Assembly (NCBI GenBank): GCA_033762255.1
Contig: JANRLT010000065.1
Location: forward strand, 248,001 to 312,000
DNA length: 64,000 nt
From: Pirellulales bacterium
Lineage (GTDB): Bacteria; Planctomycetota; Planctomycetia; Pirellulales; JALHPA01
Reading direction: 5' to 3'
Each line of letters begins with the position of its first letter. The stretch's first letter is position 1. Of the stretch, positions 31,805 to 34,448 are shown in pieces. Below the pieces are notes generated by a model that saw only the letters and a program-made list of their open reading frames with translations, was not told where the DNA came from and ran no database searches. The position numbers and the translations under genes were made by a program.

Positions 31805-31839
31805 AAAGAAAAAACCCCCGCCAGCGGTGCTGGCGGGGG
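31805..31839 (-). terminator. Rho-independent terminator for the YTV-repeat gene
   Basis: An 11-bp perfect stem CCCCCGCCAGC (31815-31825) / GCTGGCGGGGG (31829-31839) with a 3-nt loop, followed on the minus strand by a run of six T. It is about 80 bp past the stop of the minus-strand YTV gene and just after addA, which converges on it. Confidence 0.85.
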
Positions 31840-31917: not shown

Positions 31918-33894
31918 TTAGTTGCAGCAAGGTTCGGCAACCGTGGCACATGGGTCGCAACCCGCGGCGCCGGTGGCACTGGGATTGGCCGGAGCGACGG
32001 CGTCAGCCACCCACACAGCCACTTTCTTTGTGACGGTCGAGGGGACCATCGTGCAAACTTGGACGTCGATTTCCTTTTGCACTTGGACCGGTGTGGTGAC
32101 GTTGTAGGTCACGGTCTTGGTTTCCACTTGTTCCACACACTTGGTGACGGGCACTTGGCGGGTTTGCTGTTGTGCTTCGCAGACGGTGTAGGTGACATCG
32201 CGGGTAACCGGGGTGGCCACGCACTTGGCCACCTTGACCGTGGTGGTGCGGGGTTCCGCCACACATTCGGTGTAGGTGACATCCTTGGTCATGGTGACGG
32301 GGACGCACTTGGCAACCTTGACGGTGCGGGTGCGGGCTTCGGCTACGCATTCGGTGTAGGGGACATCCTTTGTCACGGTTTCAGGGACGCACTTGGCGAC
32401 CTTGACCGTGCGGGTGCGGGGTTCAGCCACGCATTCAGTGTAGGTGACATCCTTGGTCACGGTTTCAGGGACGCACTTGGCGACCTTGACCGTGCGGGTC
32501 ATTTGCTGAGCTTCGCATTCAGTGTAGGTGACATCCTTGGTCACGGTTTCAGGAACGCACTTGCCAACCTTCACGGTGACGCTTTTTTGTTCCGGCACCA
32601 TTTTGCAAACGGTGTATTCATAGGGAACTTGTTCGCTAACCATGCGGTTGACCGTCACGGTGACTTGTTCGGTGACGACATTCGGCACCCAAACTTTCTT
32701 GGCGACTTGGACCATGCAGGGAGCAGCCGGAGCGGCGGCGGCGGCACAGGCATCGCCGCCAGTCGCACAGGCATCGCCACCACAGGCCGGGGCCGGGGTT
32801 TCACAAGCCGGGGCGCACGCGGGAGCGCAGCCGCCACGTTTGTGGTGGCCCACGCGGACAAACAAGCCCTTGCTTAGGCTGGCCGGCGTGGTGCTGGCGC
32901 AGGGGGGGCAGGCCGATTCGGCAGCCGGGGGACAGGCCGATCCGCCAGCGGCGCCCGTTCCGCCCGCGGGAACCAATTCGCATTGAACTTCATAATGGCC
33001 GCGATCCACGGTGACATCGCGGGTTTCGGTGGTCGGCACGCACTTGTTGACGGTGCGGGTGCCGGTCATCTTTTCATAGGTCGGGACCATCACCGTGTAG
33101 TTCTTGACCATGTCCTCATAAACCATCTTGTTGACGGTGTAGGTGACTTGCTTGGTCTTTTGCACGGGGACCATCACCGTGTAATTTTGGACTTGGTCTT
33201 CGTAAACCATCTTATTGACGGTATAGGTGACGGGCTTGGTCTTTTGGACCGGTACCATCACCGTGTAATTTTGGACCACATCTTCGTACACGATCTTGTT
33301 GACGGTGTAAGTTACGGGCTTGGTCTTTTGGACCGGTACCATCACGGTGTAGTTTTGGACCACGTCCTCATACTGCATTTGATTGACGGTGTACGTCACT
33401 TGTTTGGTTTTTTGCACGGGGACCATCACCGTATAGTTCTTGACCACGTCCTCATATACAGTGCTGTATTGGGTTTCGGTGACTTGCTTGGTCTTTTGTA
33501 CCGGGACCATCACCGTGTAGTTTTGGGTCACCATTTCGGTCACGGGGACCATCTTTTTGACTTGGACTTCCTTGGACTGCTGTTCGGTCTTGTATTCCGT
33601 GACCGTCACGGTTTTCTTTTGGGTGGTCATTTGGGGAACCATGACCGTGACCTGCTGGTCAACGTATTCATAGTGGCCACATCCCGCTCCCCCCGCGCCG
33701 GCGGCTCCCGTGGCGGCACAGGCGTCGCCGCCAGCCCCGCAAGCATCGCCACCACAAGCCGGAGCTGTTTCACAGGCCGGGGCGCATGCCGGAGCACAGC
33801 CCCCGCAGCCGCCGCGATGATGACCGGCGGTTGCCTGGGCCAAGCCCAGCAATCCGACCGTCGCGGCTAATAGTACTTTCAACGACAACTTCAT
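31918..33894 (-). CDS. Secreted YTV-repeat, cysteine-rich cell-surface protein
   Basis: A 658-residue exported protein. A signal peptide (MKLSLKVLLAATVGLLGLAQ) precedes a Cys/Gly/Ala-rich block. Then come about five 28-residue repeats of the type YTVMVPVQKTKQVTYTVNKM (first 20 residues shown), without Cys. A second Cys/Ala-rich block follows at ~320-400. The C-terminal part has about six 28-residue repeats of the type TRTVKVAKCVPETVTKDVTY, each with two Cys, and a short Cys-rich end. The YTV repeat is a planctomycete family, and such proteins have been seen in cell-wall fractions; disulfide cross-linking is inferred from the many Cys. GGAGG is ~10 nt before the ATG. The long opposite-strand reading frames are products of the repeats. 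Confidence 0.88.
   Translation of the reverse strand: MKLSLKVLLAATVGLLGLAQATAGHHRGGCGGCAPACAPACETAPACGGDACGAGGDACAATGAAGAGGAGCGHYEYVDQQVTVMVPQMTTQKKTVTVTEYKTEQQSKEVQVKKMVPVTEMVTQNYTVMVPVQKTKQVTETQYSTVYEDVVKNYTVMVPVQKTKQVTYTVNQMQYEDVVQNYTVMVPVQKTKPVTYTVNKIVYEDVVQNYTVMVPVQKTKPVTYTVNKMVYEDQVQNYTVMVPVQKTKQVTYTVNKMVYEDMVKNYTVMVPTYEKMTGTRTVNKCVPTTETRDVTVDRGHYEVQCELVPAGGTGAAGGSACPPAAESACPPCASTTPASLSKGLFVRVGHHKRGGCAPACAPACETPAPACGGDACATGGDACAAAAAPAAPCMVQVAKKVWVPNVVTEQVTVTVNRMVSEQVPYEYTVCKMVPEQKSVTVKVGKCVPETVTKDVTYTECEAQQMTRTVKVAKCVPETVTKDVTYTECVAEPRTRTVKVAKCVPETVTKDVPYTECVAEARTRTVKVAKCVPVTMTKDVTYTECVAEPRTTTVKVAKCVATPVTRDVTYTVCEAQQQTRQVPVTKCVEQVETKTVTYNVTTPVQVQKEIDVQVCTMVPSTVTKKVAVWVADAVAPANPSATGAAGCDPCATVAEPCCN
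32180..32590 (-). repeat. 84-bp coding tandem repeats, second half of the YTV gene
   Basis: GTGTAGGTGACATCCTTGGT-type units recur every ~84 bp across this stretch (the codons for DVTYTEC), encoding about six 28-residue units each with a KCVPETVTKD core. The period equals that of the first half although the residues differ. Confidence 0.8.
33030..33540 (-). repeat. 84-bp coding tandem repeats, first half of the YTV gene
   Basis: The word ACCATCACCGTGTA recurs near 33088, 33172, 33256, 33340 (ACGGTGTA), 33424 (ACCGTATA) and 33508, a steady 84-bp spacing equal to 28 codons. Copies differ by a few bases, mostly at third codon positions, so they have been kept as protein repeats. Confidence 0.85.
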
Positions 33895-34363: not shown

Positions 34364-34448
34364 GTGCGGAGTTATGAGGCGTGCGGAGTTATGAGGCGTG
34401 TGGTGTTATTAGACGCACGATGGTATTAAGCGTGTGGCTGTCAATGGG
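34364..34448. repeat. Decaying 17-bp tandem repeat upstream of rplY
   Basis: GTGCGGAGTTATGAGGC occurs twice perfectly at 34364-34380 and 34381-34397, then three increasingly altered 17-bp copies follow (34398-34414, 34415-34431, 34432-34448). It ends 33 bp before the rplY start, so it lies in the likely 5' leader or promoter. Confidence 0.7.

Follow-up and report, generated by a model that had tools for sequence, protein, structure and literature searches.

The open reading frame at positions 31918 to 33894 on the minus strand of the window (the whole stretch of 64,000 nucleotides that was analyzed) runs from ATG to stop and codes for a protein of 658 amino acids. Our results suggest, with a probability of about 80%, that this YTV protein, probably exported to the wall, folds as one giant antiparallel two-stranded β-ribbon, the arms of which turn at a cysteine-rich hinge. 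Residues 75 to 309 and 394 to 628 would be the two strands and would pair residue by residue, with i + j = 703. The cysteine block of the hinge would lie at one tip of the ribbon, and the N-terminal block and the C-terminal tail together at the other. Computation demonstrates the antiparallel pairing of the arms in their lengths, in the mirror order of their units, in covariation, and in the register obtained with AF2.

Layout, repeats, and family of the protein

Table 1. Features of the gene for the 658-residue protein and of the sequence that follows it (positions in the window)
Feature	Position	Strand	Basis and remarks
Putative Sec-type signal peptide, residues 1-23 (MKLSLKVLLAATVGLLGLAQATA)	33826..33894	-	By-eye reading: K-bearing start, then a hydrophobic core, then small residues
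N-terminal Cys/Gly/Ala block, residues 24-74, 8 Cys	33673..33825	-	Would be placed at the hairpin's open end
N arm (strand 1), residues 75-309	32968..33672	-	Cys-free 28-residue repeat core at residues 126-265; repeat arrays, anchor profiles, AF2 strands E75-297 and E300-309
Hinge and second Cys/Gly/Ala block, residues 310-393, 10 Cys	32716..32967	-	Partial copy of the N-terminal block
C arm (strand 2), residues 394-628	32011..32715	-	Cys at 14-residue intervals; each residue i would face N-arm residue 703 - i; AF2 strands E394-403 and E406-628
C-terminal Cys tail, residues 629-658, 4 Cys	31921..32010	-	The hairpin would place the tail beside the N-terminal block
Likely gene terminator	31815..31839	-	Read from the sequence: perfect 11-bp inverted repeat, 3-base loop, then a minus-strand T run

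The Pfam profile YTV (PF07639) matched the protein with an E value of 3.6e-26 (91.4 bits; cut-off, 21) in 10 stretches. The matches covered both repeat halves, the second at 22.9 bits. Together with the literature on the YTV family, this backs the initial annotation, in which the product was called a YTV cell wall protein. YTV proteins are already known from planctomycete walls. They have been described as major constituents of SDS-resistant walls (PMC5287468), and when walls of Tuwongella were fractionated, two cysteine-rich YTV proteins were found solely in the last, SDS-extracted fraction (PMC8567305). In Planctopirus limnophila, the essential genes include one for a YTV protein (PMC10632474). 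In Gemmata obscuriglobus, Rhodopirellula baltica, and Tuwongella immobilis, the major SDS-resistant wall proteins belong to the same PF07639 profile family and are likewise cysteine rich and class restricted; they are exported, as the 658-residue protein probably is. By analogy with these proteins, the 658-residue protein is probably located in the wall.

YTV proteins were present in 60 of 60 Planctomycetia genomes. Outside this class, we detected 2 weak matches among 108 genomes of the same phylum, and none in 14 control genomes. When contigs were queried for homologues, a single protein gave no match; an alignment query did. The genome studied here carries three YTV genes, namely, the one described above and paralogues on contigs C70 and C44. 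The C44 paralogue (L055:1865-3448, 527 amino acids) has few cysteines, and its halves carry different 16-residue repeats, KPVTETSEREERFLVT and KVPVQTTRMVQEEIVR, again with one common period. Phage tblastn matches were rejected as YTV relatives, as they reflect an unrelated 14-residue AENLDKNI-type repeat with nothing in common but period and composition. The huge phage record LR745206 encodes a protein (L175:1691-3814) with a 14-residue AYSEYIAENLDKNI-type repeat, which is not YTV.

Tandem Repeats Finder detected two 84-bp arrays, at 33082 to 33526 (5.3 copies; score, 513) and at 32219 to 32578 (4.3 copies; score, 496). Protein autocorrelation revealed a 28-residue peak in both halves, with 62% identity in the first and 54% in the second. 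The two arrays with a common period of 28 residues, or 84 bp, that had been proposed from the letters were thus borne out, as was their difference in cysteine content. The core of the first set contains zero cysteines, and the second half carries them at positions 446, 460, and so on to 586, that is, at a spacing of 14 residues and two per 28. The 28-residue period is therefore real, but the deeper unit is of 14 residues, a sub-period that was clear in the second half. Moreover, both arms are repetitive over their full length and not just in the near-identical cores. The two Cys/Gly/Ala-rich blocks said to separate or cap the repeats were also found, along with a third, small block at the C terminus. 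The block in the hinge is identical to the N-terminal block at 87 of 100 aligned bases and looks like a recent copy of it; the hinge is much shorter in most relatives. Elsewhere in the window, a 17-bp tandem repeat (2.7 copies, 34364 to 34409) lies directly upstream of an L25/Ctc-like ORF that heads an apparent gene row, L25-Pth-S6-SSB-L9.

The initial annotation had also derived both repeat types from one ancestral unit, a claim set against the possibility that their profiles resemble each other in nothing beyond length. The 658-residue protein came close to the latter. Compared with parity-preserving column shuffles, its two 28-column profiles showed no excess similarity (p = 0.42 and 0.57). 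In relatives, the same comparison reached significance in 32 of the 38 proteins that belong to the 28-residue type and in 8 of 8 of the 16-residue type. The alignment register of the repeat types was constant in these relatives, e.g., KPVYETKTKEICYTVC against HMVPEQRVKTCNYTVC. Judged from the profiles, this argues that common ancestry of the units holds for the YTV family as a whole and is blurred in the 658-residue protein.

Arm lengths and mirrored units

We defined arm length as the distance between anchors, employing four short anchor profiles (for the start and the end of each arm) that were searched separately. A constant offset of 5, caused by anchor placement, was removed before the arms were compared. 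A first survey of 18 proteins had revealed halves of nearly equal length and equal periods (28/28, 30/30, and 16/16). Among 84 proteins with arms of 79 to 289 residues, a set in which a few entries are duplicates (L062/L127 and L068/L144), the N arm was exactly as long as the C arm in 71. These exactly matched lengths fall into several classes modulo 14. Shuffled pairing of the arms yielded 5.9 ± 2.3 exact matches, with a maximum of 17 in 20,000. Equality was exact in 10 of 10 proteins from named isolate genomes, and hinge length did not track arm length (r = -0.23). Tree-corrected contrasts, calculated on a tree of the anchors, gave an r of 0.94 between N- and C-arm lengths. By parsimony, about 42 changes occurred in N-arm length, about 42 in C-arm length, and 12 in the difference between them, all 12 at tips.

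The arms were unequal in the remaining 13 proteins, most of them by multiples of 14. Eleven of these are from labelled MAGs, in which the inequality likely results from repeat collapse in assembly; one of the other two is a mis-anchored protein of the 16-residue type. Some proteins of this type had arms unequal by one to six units. The same anchors gave exact equality for two proteins from single-contig genomes of more distantly related class members (219/219 and 217/217). Crude arm lengths in other orders were close (155/156, 194/189, 263/261, and 304/306), and are to be read as supportive only; L187 was mis-anchored in this comparison. In three distant class members (L188, L189, and L190), the C arm is interrupted by an insert of about 50 residues that ends near PGRVFVEG or similar and has no partner in the N arm. 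This insert would have to loop out if the ribbon exists.

Irregular units, i.e., units of 12 or 16 residues among 14s or of 14 residues among 16s, were indexed from the hinge. Of 47 irregular N-arm units in 30 proteins, 42 had a C-arm twin with the same index, compared to 18 in parallel order. The null expectation was 8.2 ± 2.4, with a maximum of 18. Many of the 42 mirrored units are the conserved distal unit, and the test was redone at residue resolution with the arm ends left out. In the 16-residue subfamily, 30 of 33 units matched at one offset, versus 9 at the best parallel offset. For the 28-residue type, 21 of 26 matched at either of two offsets, which are linked to unit size; the best parallel offset gave 9, largely from proteins with palindromic patterns. 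In the C70 paralogue, for example, the irregular units of the N arm lie at distances of 81 and 143 residues from the hinge, and those of the C arm at 84 and 146. Since irregular units lie at matching distances from the hinge in both arms, their order is mirrored.

Covariation, predicted structure, and competing explanations

To measure covariation, we calculated the mutual information between the arms, corrected for column averages, in 59 dereplicated proteins. It peaked on the antiparallel line i-j = 0 (0.103), was lower at ±2 (0.074 and 0.050), and faded past about 6, while parallel lines reached at most 0.008. Exclusion of the hinge and distal regions left the peak in place (z = 4.5), and among proteins whose units are all regular its z was 6.2. 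Because it persists in interior regular repeats, the covariation is not explained by the mirrored irregular units alone. Charge covariance between the arms was negative at -2 and 0. The N arms were near neutral and the C arms basic (51/61). Hydrophobic residue matching was not best at the covarying register, and raw hydrophobic and charge matching was insufficient to set the register. Together, the residue-exact arms, the mirror order, and the covariation indicate that the common period is a pairing constraint. The 28-residue period would be shared because every unit has to lie opposite one of the same length in the partner arm.

AF2 was run with 24 sequences, and we read the pairing from equal strand lengths and sums, as the output consisted of strand boundaries and no coordinates. 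In the 658-residue protein, the two long strands (223 residues each) and the two short ones next to the hinge all sum to 703, which is also the register of the covariation peak. Confidence was low overall (pLDDT, 51.6; pTM, 0.22), with the best values at the hinge and at the distal ends. For the short homologue L151, whose arms span about 107 residues from anchor to anchor, strands 73-207/285-419 (135 residues each) and 210-219/273-282 all gave sums of 492, with a pLDDT of 64.0 (mostly 74 to 88 in the arms) and a pTM of 0.25. These predictions used the alignments and are not fully independent of the covariation, and repeat degeneracy may contribute to the confidence values obtained for both proteins. 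In Foldseek searches with the short model, the best matches among solved structures were other long hairpins, although weak ones (best E value, 8e-4; TM-scores of about 0.1). With the stems of pore-forming toxins, there was no likeness of fold past the bare hairpin at these scores, and a viral library returned only noise. The φ29 collar protein, lysenin, and aerolysin-type pores likewise form one long antiparallel hairpin per chain. Their hairpins are far shorter, however, and have neither tandem repeats nor cysteine tips, and we claim no relationship.

Alternatively, the N arm of one molecule could pair antiparallel, in the same register, with the C arm of its neighbor, in a domain swap leading to an endless ribbon or a dimer. 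This arrangement predicts the same length matching, mirror order, and covariation, and the long hinge of the 658-residue protein and some others would accommodate it. In many homologues, however, the hinge is very short (a link of 15 to 30 residues between landmarks), which favors a turn within the chain, and we regard the swap as unlikely. Slightly less probable still is that each arm forms its own β-solenoid of 14- or 16-residue coils, with the coils of the two forced to match side by side. Short, regular, V/T-rich repeats and a unit size that varies by two residues would suit such a fold. Conversely, the covariation lies at single residue pairs and their neighbors at ±2, with less signal at odd offsets, the pattern of a strand pair, and AF2 gives extended strands without turns.

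The initial annotation had explained the two repeat types differently, as a stretchable segment followed by a crosslinkable one. The second half is indeed where cysteine is concentrated, both in this protein and in the majority of relatives (16/18 and 53/58). Independent segments, however, would have kept neither residue-exact lengths nor mirrored irregular units, which makes this explanation very improbable. The halves, equal in length to the residue, mirrored, and covarying, are the paired strands of one ribbon rather than consecutive segments that differ in mechanics. Finally, we give almost no credence to mutation alone, e.g., duplication of a whole repeat tract, as the equalizer of the arms without structural pairing: the units of both arms are homologous family-wide and a cysteine block was copied within this very gene, but duplication gives the same order, yet mirror order beats parallel order (42 versus 18 and 30 versus 9) and covariation is confined to the antiparallel line.

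A candidate building block of the planctomycete wall

As a giant hairpin, the protein would be a strut of fixed length, with 235 residues per strand and about 80 nm long if fully extended. We considered a disulfide ladder within the ribbon and dropped it, as cross-strand Cys-Cys pairs were not enriched at the pairing register. The partners of the C-arm cysteines in the N arm were Pro, Met, Ile, Tyr, or Thr; none was a cysteine. Since these cysteines face none in the N arm, they would close no ladder within the ribbon and would be available for bonds to neighbors. Given the literature and the placement of the cysteines, the sticky, cysteine-rich tips and the row in the C arm would form disulfides between molecules. 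Ribbons linked through these disulfides and through their free edges could make up an SDS-resistant wall mesh, in which ribbon length would be tuned by gain or loss of units in both arms jointly.

The accounts of the family covered here describe cysteine-rich YTV-repeat proteins only, with no hairpin pairing, arm-length matching, or mirror order. A literature search, which did not extend to the principal paper, that of Mahajan et al. (2020), returned no paper describing hairpin pairing or arm matching of YTV proteins. The hairpin explanation therefore appears to be new.

The G5-E regions of the staphylococcal proteins SasG and Aap are single-layer β rods at the cell surface, the length of which follows repeat number. 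Each of their repeats folds alone along one chain, whereas in YTV proteins two distant halves would pair over their full length. With less confidence than for the single protein, we lean toward a general picture in which the planctomycete protein wall consists of giant two-stranded β-ribbons of about 120 to more than 330 residues per strand, with distant arms that evolve in residue lockstep. If true, these ribbons would be an undescribed class of structural proteins and would embody a principle of wall construction whereby the number of paired repeats determines the length of the rod. Peptidoglycan genes have been lost in many planctomycetes, and the leading candidates to replace or reinforce peptidoglycan are YTV proteins. 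A ribbon of fixed length with cysteine-rich tips would provide a concrete building-block model for how they make a wall. Moreover, compensated gain and loss of repeats in arms hundreds of residues apart would provide a rare, clean example of long-range co-evolution, one directly legible in the sequence.
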